NCBI GenBank assembly: GCA_024276275.1
Contig: JAJRXM010000039.1
Location: forward strand, 69,271 to 109,756
Length of the DNA stretch: 40,486 nt
Direction: 5' to 3'
DNA from: Candidatus Zixiibacteriota bacterium
GTDB taxonomy: Bacteria; Zixibacteria; MSB-5A5; GN15; FEB-12
Below are positions 767 through 40,164 of the stretch, in pieces. The notes under the pieces were generated by a model that made no database searches, was not told the DNA's origin, and saw nothing but the letters and a program-made list of their open reading frames with translations. Made by a program: the position numbers and the translations under genes. Position 1 is the stretch's first letter, and each line of letters starts with the position of its first letter.

Positions 767-1924
767 TTGAACGAGGGTATAAATTTGTTTAAATTTATAA
801 TTTTTGTTCTACTGTTTGCAACTTTTGGATTTTCACAGTCAGTTTTATCGGTTTCCAAAAAGAAACAGAATAAAAAAAGAACCTCAATTCAAAAAAAAAC
901 CTTCTCACCGCTTGCAGGTGGGGAAGATGAACAGCAAAAAAGTACAGCCGTCAATACTCCTTATTCGTCATCAGAACCTATTAAAAGTACATCAGCTCTT
1001 TCACCCGGTGTTCCGGTCGGTAATACCTGGTATGATTATCAGCATAACGGTTCGATGGGGAGGATGATTGATTGGGGTCCTCACTCCGGCGGTTCAGGTG
1101 ATGCGATAGTACATTTTGGATGGATGCGTTTACCCGGAGCAGCACTTGATAATCGACACTATGCCTATAATTATTATAACGCATCAACAGGCGTATTAGG
1201 AACAACTATTGAAGTATTACCTTATGATGATGAGGGCGGGTATGTAAACTTGCAATCAACTGCTAATTCAATACCTGTTATTGGTGGATATAGAAAAACA
1301 GGACTTTTTGGCAGTAATCAGACCCATCTTTATTGGGATGTTCTGTCGGGGTTCGGTGTTAATTCTGTCTTAACTGATTCGGTAGCATCGTATGGCAGTA
1401 ATCCGGGTAAACGAGCTTTGTGGCCGAAATTTGCTTACCAAGAAGGAACCGATACGGTTACTCATGTTATTGCTACTGTAATATATGACCCGATCAATAG
1501 TGCAATTTTTTACTTTCGAAAAGTAGGTTCTGATAGTATCGGCAGTTGGGATTACCCGCCGTATATTATAGACACAATTGATGCTATTTCACACGATATA
1601 GTCGCATCACGCATATCCGATAAAGTTGTTATTGCCTGGACAGCCAATCTAAACTACGACTCAAACGGTGACCAATATCCGGTCGGTGTTTGTGATACTT
1701 GTTCAGGTTATTCACCATACGCAGTTCAATGGGACAATGATGTATATTTTCAAACTTCTGATGATCAGGGGCAGACTTGGAACCCACGAATCAATGTTAC
1801 TAAATACCGTTTGGGTGAAGCAGGATTTCGTGCCTACACCGATATATCCACTCTTATAGACAGCAACGATGATTTTCATGTTTTATGGAATGCTGTTCCG
1901 TGGTTTCCGATATTGCTGATTTGA
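767..1924 (+). CDS. Secreted BNR/Asp-box protein, N-terminal fragment of a frameshifted gene
   Basis: Starts with a TTG codon; the two nearby ATGs are in another frame that closes quickly. Residues about 6-24 form a signal peptide (FKFIIFVLLFATFGFSQ), so the product is exported. The rest looks like a sialidase-type BNR or propeller region, with the Asp-box motif TSDDQGQTWNPRINVT near residue 330. The frame closes at 1922-1924 just after DDFHVLWNAVPWFP, while the coding sense continues in the next frame as DIADLTLDNSSRLFHYSEN. Adding one G (CCGAT to CCGGAT near 1909) would join the two parts into a protein of about 1,090 residues. Whether the lesion is real or an assembly error cannot be decided here. 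The exact substrate or role is unknown. Confidence 0.75.
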   Translation: MNEGINLFKFIIFVLLFATFGFSQSVLSVSKKKQNKKRTSIQKKTFSPLAGGEDEQQKSTAVNTPYSSSEPIKSTSALSPGVPVGNTWYDYQHNGSMGRMIDWGPHSGGSGDAIVHFGWMRLPGAALDNRHYAYNYYNASTGVLGTTIEVLPYDDEGGYVNLQSTANSIPVIGGYRKTGLFGSNQTHLYWDVLSGFGVNSVLTDSVASYGSNPGKRALWPKFAYQEGTDTVTHVIATVIYDPINSAIFYFRKVGSDSIGSWDYPPYIIDTIDAISHDIVASRISDKVVIAWTANLNYDSNGDQYPVGVCDTCSGYSPYAVQWDNDVYFQTSDDQGQTWNPRINVTKYRLGEAGFRAYTDISTLIDSNDDFHVLWNAVPWFPILLI

Positions 1925-4050
1925 CCTTAGACAACTCAAGCCGACTCTTTCATTACTCGGAAAACAGTTCCAACATACGAACTGTAGCAAGTGCCGAGTG
2001 GCCGACTGACAGCGTTAGCTGTGGACCTGGTGCCTGGAATATAAATATAGCCAAAATGTCTCTCTCGGAATGTAATGGCAAGCTATATGCCTTATGGACA
2101 CAATTTAATGATGTCCCAAACGGTATTACTGATGATTGTGCATCATGGTCATCTTCTCAATATAGCGGTTCTGCAAATGGAGAACTATTTGTTTCAATTT
2201 CATCTGATAACGGTACTCTATGGGATATCCCAAGAAATCTGACAAATTCGTACACTCCAAACTGTGACCCGTCAATCGGCTATGATTGTGAGTCCGACAA
2301 CTGGGCATCTATGGCTCGGTATGGAAGGCAAAACCAAGCAGGCGATGATTGGTCGGGAGCGGTCGTTGTTGACCCATCCGGTTCTTACAGCGGTGATTAC
2401 TTCCTTGATTTTCAATATGTACATGACCGTGATGCCGGTGGAATTATTCAGGGAGAAGGGTCATGGCAGTTATCAAATATTAACTGGTTCCGTTTAACGT
2501 GTGTAGATCCTATTTATTCACCCGGACCGATTATTTTAACTCCTAATAATATTGATTTACCTACTTGGGTAAAACCAAATGTAGAACTTACAATAGACTT
2601 AACAATTGAAAACCTTGGCAATGCAGATGTTTCATATAATATATCTGTTGAAGAAGACAACGGTCCTGCTGGGTGGTTAGCCGTATCAGGTTTTTCAGGA
2701 ACTGTTCTATCAGGACTTTCTAACATAGAAATCGGCACTCTACATTTGAATACTGCAGGTGTACAAACATCCGAAGCAGGTTTATATGGACGAGTTATTT
2801 TCAACTCAAATTCGGTTTCATCACCCGATACGATTCCCGTTTATCTTGCTGTTGTTGATACTTTAGTTACCCCCTCAATAGATTCTATTTTAGGTTATAT
2901 GAGTTTGGTTGTTTCAAATAACGGTAACTACGGCAATATGGGAAATAATGGGACAGGACGTTTAAATTTTGATTATACCGCAAATTCTCTTGATTGTGAC
3001 ACTACCGCTGATATCTATCTCTATGATGCTTCACCTTTACTTGGGAAAATAGAAGGTGTTGATACAATTTTTTATCATTCATTCAGGCAAGACAATTGGC
3101 TTAATCCAAATTCTTTCAGACCTATAGGTGGGCAAGCCTTGGGGAATGGAACCAAATATAATTGGTATTCAACCGGTATACTCACAACTCCCGACACTAC
3201 TATTGCTCTCGAGCAAACTTTTTATGCTCCGACAACAATAGGTGCCAACTATATGATTAAAAAGTTGAAAATCTGGTCTGCTGATGGTGCTGCTCATAAC
3301 GGGTTACGAATTGGTGATGTTGTCGACTGGGATATTCCGTCCGATACCAATGCTTGGAACAGTTCTGCTTTTGATCCTACACGTAACTTGATTTATCAAA
3401 TTGGCGGTGAGTTCGATCAAGACAATCCGCAAGGGGATGATTGTATAGATTCTGACAGACGTTTTGGAGGTATGGCATTTCTAAAATCGGTTCTAAACGG
3501 GACTGAATATAAGACAATAACGTACTCTACCTATACTGCTCCAAATAACCAATTTATCGAACCGACAGGTAATTTAGTTTCGGGTGAACTTTGGAATAAT
3601 ATGGGACAACCCGGTTTCTCTGTTGAAACCGGTGTTTATGATCAGCATACTGTTATCTGTTATGAGCCGTCATTTGATTTAGGGGCTACTGACACAATCG
3701 TGTTTTGGACATCTCTGCTGTCAGTTTACGATGGGACAGTATCCGATATTTTGGTAGCAGCTGATAGTGCTTTTGAACTTGCAAGCTGTTTGAATACATT
3801 TCCGAGTGATTGTAATCCTGTTGGAAGTTGCTGTGTAGCAAATAGAGGGAATGTTGACGGTGATGCACTCGACGAAATAGATATTTCTGACTTAGTTGCT
3901 CTGGTAGCATACATGTTTCAAGGAAGTGCTACTCCTGTATGTTTGGAAGAAGCAGATATAGACGGTAGTGGCGGTATTGATATTTCCGATTTAGTAACAC
4001 TTGTTGCTTTTATGTTCCAAGGCGGAGCCGCACCTGCAGCCTGCCCGTAG
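1885..4050 (+). CDS. Secreted BNR/Asp-box protein with dockerin-like C-terminus, C-terminal fragment of a frameshifted gene
   Basis: This is the continuation of the gene starting at 767; the ATG at 1885 overlaps the end of the first fragment and is probably not a true start. It carries a second Asp-box (SSDNGTLWDIPRNLT, around residue 107), then an Ig-like or BACON-like stretch (ENLGNADVSYN ... GWLAVSGFSGTV, around 235-320), then a long extracellular region without a recognised fold. Residues 647-721 are a two-repeat dockerin-like module: NVDGDALDEIDISDLV..VAYMFQG and DIDGSGGIDISDLV..VAFMFQGG, each with a calcium-loop pattern, preceded by a CC pair. Dockerins bind cohesins in cellulosomes, but in several uncultured phyla this tail seems to act as a general surface or secretion tag. 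No cohesin is visible in the window. Confidence 0.8.
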   Translation: MECCSVVSDIADLTLDNSSRLFHYSENSSNIRTVASAEWPTDSVSCGPGAWNINIAKMSLSECNGKLYALWTQFNDVPNGITDDCASWSSSQYSGSANGELFVSISSDNGTLWDIPRNLTNSYTPNCDPSIGYDCESDNWASMARYGRQNQAGDDWSGAVVVDPSGSYSGDYFLDFQYVHDRDAGGIIQGEGSWQLSNINWFRLTCVDPIYSPGPIILTPNNIDLPTWVKPNVELTIDLTIENLGNADVSYNISVEEDNGPAGWLAVSGFSGTVLSGLSNIEIGTLHLNTAGVQTSEAGLYGRVIFNSNSVSSPDTIPVYLAVVDTLVTPSIDSILGYMSLVVSNNGNYGNMGNNGTGRLNFDYTANSLDCDTTADIYLYDASPLLGKIEGVDTIFYHSFRQDNWLNPNSFRPIGGQALGNGTKYNWYSTGILTTPDTTIALEQTFYAPTTIGANYMIKKLKIWSADGAAHNGLRIGDVVDWDIPSDTNAWNSSAFDPTRNLIYQIGGEFDQDNPQGDDCIDSDRRFGGMAFLKSVLNGTEYKTITYSTYTAPNNQFIEPTGNLVSGELWNNMGQPGFSVETGVYDQHTVICYEPSFDLGATDTIVFWTSLLSVYDGTVSDILVAADSAFELASCLNTFPSDCNPVGSCCVANRGNVDGDALDEIDISDLVALVAYMFQGSATPVCLEEADIDGSGGIDISDLVTLVAFMFQGGAAPAACP

Positions 4051-4983: not shown

Positions 4984-5018
4984 AAAAAAACCCATCCGAC
5001 TAGGCGGACGGGTTTTTT
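4984..5018 (-). terminator. Terminator of the DNRLRE lipoprotein gene (bidirectional)
   Basis: Stem ACCCATCCG / CGGACGGGT with one mismatch, flanked by seven A on one side and six T on the other, so it can act on either strand. It lies about 25 bases past the TAA at 5043, not past the earlier TAA at 5355. This supports the longer reading as the original gene end. Confidence 0.75.
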
Positions 5019-5042
5019 GGGATATATATTCAGGTATTTTTA

Positions 5043-5354
5043 TTAGTGACCGTCACCGCCGTCGTCATCGTCATCGTCTTTGTCTTTTTTGTTGTCCTTT
5101 TTATCTTTATCTTTGTGATCTTTTTTGTCTTTGTCTTTGTCTTTTTTATCTTTGTCGTGATGGTCATTGTCATCATCATTACAGCTTCCTTCATGATCAC
5201 CGTCGTGATTGTCAGAATCGTGTCCGTCATGATCGTCATATTCATCAGAGTCGTGACCGTCGTGGTTGTCAGAATCGTGGCCGTCATGGTTATCATATTC
5301 ATCAGAGTCATGACCGTCGTGATTGTCAGAATCGTGGCCGTCATGGTTATCATA
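5043..5354 (-). pseudogene. Asp/His/Lys-rich C-terminal tail cut off by an in-frame TAA
   Basis: After the TAA at 5355-5357 the same frame stays open for 103 more codons, to TAA at 5043-5045. It encodes tandem copies of NHDGHDSD grouped in a 19-residue (57-base) unit, EYDNHDGHDSDNHDGHDSD, then a C-containing linker and a run of DK-rich sequence. In the other units the first codon is GAA (Glu) where this one has TAA, so a single G-to-T change explains the truncation. The tail is extremely acidic and histidine-rich, which suggests metal ion binding (inference). The opposite strand also looks open here, but only because of the repeat composition. Confidence 0.75.
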
Positions 5355-6077
5355 TTAATCAGAGTCATGACCGTCGTGGTTGTCTGAGTTATGGTCGTCA
5401 GAATCACAATCATCTTCATCGTCGTTAGTATTGCCCGGGTTTAAAGCGATATCAAATTTCAACAGAGTTTGTTTTTCCAAATCATAAGAGGCAAACCAAC
5501 CGGTGTAAAGTCTGTCGCTGCTGCCATTGTTAACATCCGGAGCATTTTCCCAGATATATGTATCGGCTATTACTTCAGTTTGAACGCATGTTGTAACACC
5601 GTTTTCAGTATAGCAGACTTCAAGGAAAGGTCTATTCTTATAAAACTCTTTACTGAAATAGATAGCTCTTGGAAAAGTCATATCGACCTGATCTAAAAGC
5701 AGACCGAAATTGTCATAAGTACCGTCAGTCCAACTATTAAAGAGCGGTGTAATATCTACTATGTTCCAACCTGCGGTAGATACAAAAGAACCTTCTACTG
5801 TTGGATTAAAAGCTCCGCTAAAAGAATTCCAGGTAACAACAGTTTCGTTCCAATCGGAAGTTACCCGGTGGATGTTAATAGGCTGATTATTGCCGATGTA
5901 AGTATTGATATTTAGTTTTGCCGATGTAATAGTTGCATTGGTCGGCAGAATAACGGGTGCCAAACCTAAACCACTTACATTTAAATCAGGGCTGACTGAA
6001 TTTTGTTCGGATGAACAACCGACAAGCATAATACCGGTTAGGGTAAGGACTAACATGAGGAAATTAAGTTTTTTCAA
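5355..6077 (-). CDS. DNRLRE-domain lipoprotein, truncated before its Asp/His-rich tail
   Basis: Predicted surface or periplasmic lipoprotein of 240 residues. I place the start at TTG 6077 because AAGGAG (6086-6091) lies eight bases upstream; this puts the lipobox LVGC at Cys21. The body has the pattern of DNRLRE/CBM96-like beta-sandwich domains: LPTNATITSAKLNINTYIG, VTSDWNETVVTWNS, WNIVDITPLFNSW, GLLLDQVDM and RPFLEVCY, and a second half beginning VIADTYIWENAPDVNNG. Such domains occur in secreted surface and carbohydrate-associated proteins. The frame ends at TAA 5355-5357, inside a tandem repeat whose other units have GAA at this place, so the original protein was probably 344 residues, ending at 5043. 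It looks monocistronic. Confidence 0.85.
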   Translation of the reverse strand: MKKLNFLMLVLTLTGIMLVGCSSEQNSVSPDLNVSGLGLAPVILPTNATITSAKLNINTYIGNNQPINIHRVTSDWNETVVTWNSFSGAFNPTVEGSFVSTAGWNIVDITPLFNSWTDGTYDNFGLLLDQVDMTFPRAIYFSKEFYKNRPFLEVCYTENGVTTCVQTEVIADTYIWENAPDVNNGSSDRLYTGWFASYDLEKQTLLKFDIALNPGNTNDDEDDCDSDDHNSDNHDGHDSD

Positions 6078-18870: not shown

Positions 18871-19464
18871 TTGCTTGAGAAAAAACACCTCGAATATAGA
18901 GAAGACATCAGAGACTTCTGCTTAAAACAAATTGAACCGGTTGCGAAAATTATTGATGAAGAACAACGGTTTTTACAAGAACATATCCAACCGTTAACTG
19001 ACAAAGGTCTGTTCTCGGTTTTTATCCCCGAAGAATACGGAGGTAAACCGGTTGATACTATTTCCTATGCTATAGCAGTTGAAGAACTTTCCCGTGTCTG
19101 CGGTTCCACAGGCATTACCGTAGCTGCCCATAACTCGCTTGGAACTTTTCCGATTTTAGCATTTGGCAACGATGAACAAAAGAAACGATTTTTACCTCGT
19201 GCCGCCAAGGGCGAACTGTTAGCATTTGGTCTTTCAGAACCGGATGCCGGTTCCGACGCAGGAGGTACCCGTACCTATGCAAAAAAAGTTGACAAAGGAT
19301 GGGAAGTAAACGGTTCTAAATGCTGGATTACATCGGCAACCAAAGCGTTTGCCTCTATAGGTACTGCTAAAACTTCCGAAGATGCCAATGATAGAAGAAT
19401 CACCACACTTATAATGGAAAAGATTGTGACGGTTATGCTGTCGGAAAAAAAGAAAATAAAATAG
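18871..19464 (+). CDS. Acyl-CoA dehydrogenase, N-terminal fragment of a frameshifted gene
   Basis: Starts at TTG three bases after the previous stop, with AAGGAG six bases upstream (the RBS lies inside the upstream gene). It carries the N-terminal and middle domains: LFSVFIPEEYGGKPVD, AHNSLGTFPILAFG, FGLSEPDAGSDAGG and NGSKCWITSA. The frame is lost after ITTLIMEK. Adding one G at 19422 (AAGAT to AAGGAT) restores EKDCDGYAVGKKENKIGLRGSD and continues in the fragment 19506-20018. The joined protein would be about 382 residues, the normal length. Whether the loss is biological or an assembly error is unknown. Confidence 0.85.
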   Translation: MLEKKHLEYREDIRDFCLKQIEPVAKIIDEEQRFLQEHIQPLTDKGLFSVFIPEEYGGKPVDTISYAIAVEELSRVCGSTGITVAAHNSLGTFPILAFGNDEQKKRFLPRAAKGELLAFGLSEPDAGSDAGGTRTYAKKVDKGWEVNGSKCWITSATKAFASIGTAKTSEDANDRRITTLIMEKIVTVMLSEKKKIK

Positions 19465-19505
19465 GCCTTCGAGGTTCTGATACTGCCTTCTTACATTTTG
19501 ATGAT

Positions 19506-20018
19506 ATGTTTGTACCTGATGAAAACCTGCTAGGTAAAGAGGGGGAAGGGTTTAAGCAGATGCTTATCACTCTTGACGGTGGACGAATTTCTATCGGTGC
19601 GATGGCACTTGGTCTCGGACAAGGTGCTTTGGATGTTGCCTTAAAATATGCGGCTGAACGTCATCAATTCGGAAAACCGATTATTGCCAATCAGGCAATT
19701 CAACACAAACTTGCTGATATGTCAATGGAACTAGAGGCTGCCCGTCTGTTGATTTATGATTGTGCAAGACGAAAAGATGCTAAAGAAAACTATACCCGCT
19801 ATTCTGCTATATGTAAATTGTATGCTTCAGAAGTAGGACGAAGATGTGCCGAACATGCGATTGAAATTCTCGGTTCTGTTGGAATTCTCACAGGTAAATA
19901 TACTGCCGAACGAATTTGGCGTGATGTCAAACTGTGTGAGATTGGTGAAGGAACCTCCGAAGTCCAACGCCTTGTTATCGCCCGCGAACTCCTCAAAGAA
20001 TTAGAAGCACAAAAATAG
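19506..20018 (+). CDS. Acyl-CoA dehydrogenase, C-terminal fragment of a frameshifted gene
   Basis: Continuation of 18871-19464; the coding frame actually reopens at about 19422, and the ATG at 19506 is an internal methionine (DDMFVPDENLLG). It contains the C-terminal helical domain: LDGGRISIGAMALGLGQGAL, RHQFGKPIIANQAIQHKLA and the catalytic-base region ERIWRDVKLCEIGEGTSEVQ. The GEGTSE pattern places a Glu at the short/medium-chain position, whereas isovaleryl-CoA dehydrogenases read GAGTSE, so this does not look like the leucine-pathway enzyme. Ends before a cluster of hairpins. Confidence 0.85.
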   Translation: MFVPDENLLGKEGEGFKQMLITLDGGRISIGAMALGLGQGALDVALKYAAERHQFGKPIIANQAIQHKLADMSMELEAARLLIYDCARRKDAKENYTRYSAICKLYASEVGRRCAEHAIEILGSVGILTGKYTAERIWRDVKLCEIGEGTSEVQRLVIARELLKELEAQK

Positions 20019-38871: not shown

Positions 38872-39048
38872 ATGGAAACATTACAAACTCTAGAAAATAA
38901 ATATGATGATTTAGAAGGTCGGTTTGCTGAACATAAAGCGAATCTGCAAGACCTTGCTACCATGGGAACGGTGATTACATCAATCCATGAGATTAACTCC
39001 GTTTTGTCAGTTGTTATGGAGATGTCAATTCGTTTAGTGAATGGCTAA
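38872..39048 (+). pseudogene. N-terminal fragment of an RsbU-type phosphatase cut by in-frame TAA
   Basis: From ATG 38872 an open frame encodes 58 residues (METLQTLENKYDDLEGRFAE ... IHEINSVLSVVMEMSIRLVNG) of coiled-coil then GAF-like sequence, and ends at TAA 39046-39048. The same frame then continues without another stop to 40164 (VGGILLHENDEFIGKASWG), so the TAA interrupts one gene. In the expected GAF domain this position would typically be Glu (GAA), so a single G-to-T change would explain it. The ATG has no strong RBS. Confidence 0.65.
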
Positions 39049-39132
39049 GTCGGTGGAATTCTTTTACATGAAAATGATGAATTTATTGGAAAAGCATCGT
39101 GGGGTGTTAATCAGGAATTTCTCAAAACGCTC

Positions 39133-40164
39133 ATGTATGAAGAGGATGTTGATTTAGCATCTCATTGTTTTACAAATCGTGAAACAGTTATTTTACAAAG
39201 TCTCGGAGTCCAATCGGATGATGGGATGACTCTCAATTCAATAATTTGTGCTCCGATACAAACGTCGAAAACATGTTATGGTACCATAATCATAATAAAT
39301 AAAACAGATGGTTCCGATTATAACAAAGATGATCAAGAAATGCTTGAGATGCTTCTTTCGTTTGTTGCAGTAGCGATTGAAAATTCAATTTTAATGAAGG
39401 AGAGATTGGAACGTCAAAAAATTGAACAAGAGATGTTAATTGCAAAACAGATTCAAGAAACAATCCTCCCACAGGATATTGATTGTATCGAAGGTGCCGA
39501 GATTGGTGCTGTTTATTTTCCGGCTCGTGATGTCGGTGGTGACTTTTATGATGTTGTAAAATTAGAGGGGAACAAATTTGTCATAATTATGGGCGATGTT
39601 TCCAACAAAGGTGTTCCGGCGGCACTTGTGATGTCGGCAACATCTGCAATTATAAAGTCGACCCTCAAACAAAATAATGATATTAGTATAGCCGAACTTG
39701 CTGAAACTACAAATGTACTCCTATCCAACGAAATAATAAAAGAGAGAGAAATGTTTGTAACTCTCTTTTTCTGTAAATTTGATTTTGATGAAATGAAAAT
39801 TACATTTTGTAATGCCGGTCATTTGCCGGGGTTATTCTATGATAATACTGAACATAAAATTATTGAACTCGCTGTCGGCGGTCCTATTATCGGTCAATTT
39901 CCTGAGATAAAATATAAACAAGGCGAACAACCGTTTAAAAAAGGTGATAGGTTATTCTTGTTTACTGACGGTCTGACTGAAGCAGCCGATGATACAGGAC
40001 AATTATTCGGAAGAGAAAGAGCAGAACAGGTGTTTTCAATTGAATATCATCTTCCTCCAAAAGAATTTTGCTTAAAAGTAAAAGAGTGGATTGACAACTT
40101 TACTGAAGGTTGTGCTGAAGATATGGTAGATGATTTCACAATTTTACAGGTTAAGGCGGTTTAA
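39133..40164 (+). CDS. RsbU/SpoIIE-type PP2C phosphatase with GAF domain, after internal stop
   Basis: 343 residues as read from ATG 39133, but the frame is open back to 39049 and linked to the fragment at 38872, giving a gene of 430 codons. The remaining GAF domain (SIICAPIQTSKTCYGTIIII) is followed by a helix (KQIQETILPQ) and a complete PP2C SpoIIE domain: PARDVGGDFYDVV, IMGDVSNKGVPAALVMSA, NAGHLPGLFYD, LFTDGLTEA and DDFTILQVK. Such phosphatases dephosphorylate anti-anti-sigma factors in stress and partner-switching systems. The next gene is an RsbW-like kinase, which fits. The 39133 ATG could start a shorter functional phosphatase. Confidence 0.85.
   Translation: MYEEDVDLASHCFTNRETVILQSLGVQSDDGMTLNSIICAPIQTSKTCYGTIIIINKTDGSDYNKDDQEMLEMLLSFVAVAIENSILMKERLERQKIEQEMLIAKQIQETILPQDIDCIEGAEIGAVYFPARDVGGDFYDVVKLEGNKFVIIMGDVSNKGVPAALVMSATSAIIKSTLKQNNDISIAELAETTNVLLSNEIIKEREMFVTLFFCKFDFDEMKITFCNAGHLPGLFYDNTEHKIIELAVGGPIIGQFPEIKYKQGEQPFKKGDRLFLFTDGLTEAADDTGQLFGRERAEQVFSIEYHLPPKEFCLKVKEWIDNFTEGCAEDMVDDFTILQVKAV

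Follow-up and report, generated by a model that had tools for sequence, protein, structure and literature searches.

The lipoprotein gene considered here lies on the minus strand of a 40,486-nt stretch of DNA from a Candidatus Zixiibacteriota bacterium (the window, i.e. the whole stretch analysed). It carries an in-frame TAA at positions 5355–5357, and this stop is probably an error of the assembly or consensus and not a biological feature. The Asp/His-rich tail behind it is, on comparative sequence evidence, the true C-terminus of the protein, and the annotation should give the full-length product, tail included. Two sets of data bear on this: an intact ortholog in a related genome, and the same class of change in essential genes of the same assembly.

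The lipoprotein and its repeat array

The part of the gene before the stop (5358–6077, minus strand) has 240 codons, which specify a signal peptide, a lipobox (LVGC), a two-part beta domain and about the first 25 residues of the acidic tail. The start codon is a TTG at position 6077, with AAGGAG upstream. Profile scores place the domain in the DNRLRE/CBM96 group and exceed the curated cut-offs in both libraries, with 55.4 bits against a cut-off of 26 for PF24517 (CBM96, Pfam) and 101 bits against 34 for NF033679 (DNRLRE, NCBIfam). An AlphaFold model is confident for residues 41–210, and of low confidence for the linker before them and for the tail from 211 on. A Foldseek search of the domain against the PDB gave no match at E <= 0.001, and a search of the genome for a second copy of the gene found none.

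Relatives with this domain are present throughout the family and order, and lipoproteins of the group share with the window gene both the domain above cut-off and the lipobox. In most of them the C-terminus is extended by 118 or more residues of a kind unlike the tail of the window gene. The Asp/His-rich tandem-repeat tail is found in the window gene and in its ortholog from genome G003, and in a looser form in G002, G004, G020 (L020, G032) and L074; its sequence shows fast turnover between species. As judged from these sequences, the product is an ordinary surface lipoprotein of the DNRLRE/CBM96 type, from a bacterium of the Zixibacteria group, and has a fast-evolving Asp/His-rich repeat tail.

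The tandem array encodes Asp/His-rich repeats in units of 57 bp (19 codons) and spans 5199–5384 on the minus strand (TRF, 3.3 copies, 93% match). The initial annotation had placed the TAA within this array, and this is so, with the refinement that the stop is at a unit boundary, where it ends the first, partial unit, and is not inside a full unit. The codon equivalent to it is GAA in the next two units, in agreement with the GAA reported earlier for the other units. Full units 1 and 2 have two synonymous differences only.

Behind the stop the frame stays open for 103 codons (5046–5354, minus strand). They begin with the remainder of the array, which is followed by a Cys, a stretch of Lys and Asp, and an end rich in Asp. 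There is no further stop or frameshift within these codons. A double TAA at 5040–5045, consisting of the TAA at 5043–5045 and a second one directly after it, is presumably where the gene really ends. A hairpin with a T run, resembling an intrinsic terminator, is situated at 4985–5018 on the same strand; the extent of the open frame and a terminator past the second stop had both been described before, and correctly so. A codon count finds no in-frame ATG, GTG or TTG in the tail. Re-initiation inside the tail is ruled out by this lack of a start codon, and the tail could be made only by read-through or if the stop is absent.

Conservation of the tail

It should be pointed out that openness of the frame is weak evidence for coding, since three other frames are likewise mostly open over the same stretch because of its Asp/His/Lys composition. 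In addition, two of about 30 homologues (L020 and L080) have an open frame of at least 100 codons past the stop without the conserved tail.

The closest ortholog is found in G003, a Zixibacteria MAG, on contig JAJRQO010000034.1 from sample ‘Dive100’. The Dive100 metagenome originates from vents of the Southwest Indian Ridge (PMC9769843). The G003 locus is syntenic with that of the window, with AtuA upstream and a 194-aa gene downstream. The ortholog displays 85% identity across the domain and is a single uninterrupted frame of 370 codons, and its stop is also followed by a hairpin with a T run. Its tail has a 57-bp array of its own with a Cys on each side, then a run of Lys and Asp and an end rich in Asp, such that the order of Asp/His repeats, Cys, Lys/Asp run and Asp-rich end is common to both genes. 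At the site of the window stop, G003 has an Asp (GAC) or an Asn (AAC) codon, depending on the repeat alignment.

The post-stop codons align with G003 wholly in phase, with dN of 0.30 and dS of 1.88; the corresponding values for the domain are 0.077 and 1.34. Post-stop differences are distributed 26/22/50 over the three codon positions, and the two other frames of this stretch have no comparable excess of silent change. By these measures of substitution, the aligned post-stop codons show coding constraint. This constraint, together with the intact ortholog, is the reason for regarding the tail as the true C-terminus, and the G003 gene bears out the proposal that a single base is all that keeps the tail from being an intact reading unit.

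The array of the window gene (5199–5384) and that of the G003 ortholog (L028 6182–6389) both have 57-bp units, and about half of the residues differ between them. Comparison of the two arrays suggests an old repeat that has been homogenised within each species.

None of the complete homologues ends at the window stop or directly after the domain. Complete homologue frames are 345–643 aa in length, and their tails, where measurable, have at least 118 residues. The initial annotation had named a homologue with a natural end at this point as evidence against its reading, and none was found.

Perhaps production of the tail is controlled, by phase variation or by programmed read-through of the TAA. 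A tandem array around the stop and an open frame behind it are what such control might look like, and the initial annotation listed both mechanisms among its options. The 57-bp unit, however, is a multiple of three, and a change in copy number keeps the frame; the stop is absent in G003 and in all other homologues examined; and no start codon is available for re-initiation. Also, the base after the TAA is T at this site, a context that is regarded as giving efficient termination in well-studied bacteria. With an in-frame unit and a stop that is not conserved, this option did not hold up and appears very improbable.

Broken genes elsewhere in the assembly

The window genome (G000; the window lies on its contig C3) was compared with its congeners G002 and G003 over about 230 of its 3,388 kb, which included the rest of C3, contig C84, and the contigs with the ribosomal-protein genes and rpoB. 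Counts of broken genes are based on tblastn output filtered by hand, whereby matches due to antisense ORFs, N-terminal over-extensions and contig ends were dropped. After this hand filtering, genes broken by one base number about 13 of 157 in G000, about 14 of 167 in G002 and about three of 175 in G003. The breaks in G000 are eight Glu-to-TAA changes together with frameshifts.

Three other genes in the window are broken, all on the plus strand. An RsbU-like phosphatase gene (38872–40164) has an in-frame TAA at 39046–39048, where G003 has GAG and G002 has GAA. An acyl-CoA dehydrogenase gene (18871–20018) is split by the loss of one base in an A run at about 19418–19421, and its counterparts in G003 and G002 are single ORFs of 382–383 codons. 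A gene for a BNR/dockerin-like surface protein (767–4050) has a one-base shift at about 1900–1906; the frames of its relatives are about 1,100 codons long.

Of major interest are the breaks in essential genes of G000. The single-copy rpsS, which encodes S19, has a TAA at Glu codon 24 (G000:C92 position 21171; L123/L124). This gene was found in 46 of the 54 family genomes searched, and only in G000 does it have an internal stop. The rpoA gene has a TAA at a Glu codon near codon 20 (G000:C92 position 9858; L123/L124), and fusA has a frameshift around 427–451 of L128 (G000:C43). S19, RNA polymerase alpha and EF-G are indispensable to a cell, and therefore these breaks are either wrong bases or are decoded. 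Additional TAA triplets at Glu codons are at C3:35768, C3:64846, C84:16927 and C84:48356, and contig C84 has further one-base frameshifts. In G002, which is of the same genus, rplB has a TAA at a Lys codon (L126, G002:C4, 19872 of the joined stretch). Contigs C63 and C64 of G002 also contain many one-base deletions, and G003 is nearly free of such breaks.

The congeners are intact at the positions broken in G000, and the rate of breaks tracks the assembly and not the gene. Error is the simplest account of the breaks because their rate follows the assembly and because one-base indels in short runs are found beside the stops. The prior for an error at 5355–5357 is high, given that the same class of change is present in rpsS, rpoA and fusA, and we infer that the lipoprotein stop and the essential-gene stops have a shared origin. 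The TAA at 5355–5357 would then result from an incorrect base in the draft consensus and would belong with the numerous substitutions of single bases and indels of one base in the G000 assembly; in the organism the reading frame would run on to the double TAA at 5040–5045. A base-call error was among the options first listed for this stop, and it is the one best supported, by the stops in rpsS and rpoA, the fusA frameshift and the three other broken genes of the window.

A real and recent nonsense mutation, another of those options, can be looked at as a possible but unlikely alternative, conceivable for a tail that is probably dispensable. The organism would make a 240-residue lipoprotein with a complete domain and a stub of the tail, and the mutation would be too recent for the downstream stretch to have decayed. 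Consistent with this, the whole domain precedes the stop, the tail is predicted to be disordered, the 103 codons have no second stop or frameshift, and the tail sequence evolves fast between species, so its loss may be tolerable. The near-identical 57-bp units might also recombine and remove the stop. However, that the homologues all continue past this point argues against a real mutation, as does the presence of the same change class in rpsS, rpoA and fusA of G000, where real loss is impossible.

The error reading has a parallel in PMC12007338. As in G000, conserved genes, some of them essential, contain stops due to a single base and indels of one base, frequently within short homopolymers, and the rate depends on the assembly. 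A difference is the spectrum of substitutions in G000, which consists almost wholly of GAA-to-TAA changes and is narrower than expected. A literature search gave nothing specific on nonsense mutations in the repeat tails of bacterial proteins or on pseudogene errors in MAGs.

Both G000 (95% complete, 0.3% contamination) and G002 (95% and 2%) look clean by completeness and contamination, yet about one in 12 of the compared genes is broken by one base, and essential genes are among them. Where such genomes seem to show pseudogenes, truncations or phase variation, the essential genes of the same assembly should be checked first.

The GAA bias of the stops

Eight of the nine in-frame stops found in G000 (on C3, C92 and C84) are changes of GAA to TAA. 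With a symmetric G-to-T/C-to-A error, each stop would fall on GAA with a probability of 0.44. The bias is narrower than random substitution error predicts, which speaks against the error reading. No sequence motif was seen around the TAA sites. G-to-T changes on the essential contigs are in excess in G000, with 22 against five and eight. The matching missense errors are lacking, however, which also speaks against the error reading: at sites conserved in both congeners, Asp is changed to Tyr in none of 986 cases and Gly to Cys in none of 1496 in G000, and a looser two-way count gives only four Asp-to-Tyr and two Gly-to-Cys changes.

An improbable reading: UAA as a glutamate codon

This bias raises the question of whether UAA is decoded as Glu at a small fraction of the Glu codons, rpsS and rpoA included, while it is still the main stop; the full tail would then be made. 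Such a reading draws on the eight stops at Glu codons, among them those of the two essential genes, and on the absence of Asp-to-Tyr and Gly-to-Cys changes at strictly conserved sites. It seems highly unlikely nonetheless. None of the 38 typed tRNAs has a UUA anticodon, although a missing tRNA is conceivable in a genome that is 95% complete, and a pattern search for a UUA tRNA was empty even though it recovered tRNA-Lys and tRNA-Leu(UAG). TAA terminates 64% of the G000 genes, compared with 66% and 63% in the congeners, and the terminator of rpoA itself is TAA. Furthermore, in G002, which belongs to this genus, in-frame stops also fall on Lys, Gln and Leu codons, decoding leaves the frameshifts of the G000 assembly unaccounted for, and a few Asp-to-Tyr and Gly-to-Cys changes do appear in the looser two-way count.

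A dual meaning of UAA, as Glu and as stop, is known from Blastocrithidia (PMC12153298). In-frame UAA at Glu sites and the use of UAA as a stop are common to this organism and G000. Blastocrithidia is a eukaryote, however, whereas the searches for a cognate tRNA in G000 were negative and its terminator usage has not shifted relative to the congeners.

One candidate for a suppressor tRNA, at L053 1500–1588, was rejected: its loop reads CTTATAA and the anticodon is UAU, not UUA. This 89-nt tRNA, labelled Ile, has a long variable arm, which is odd for its type.
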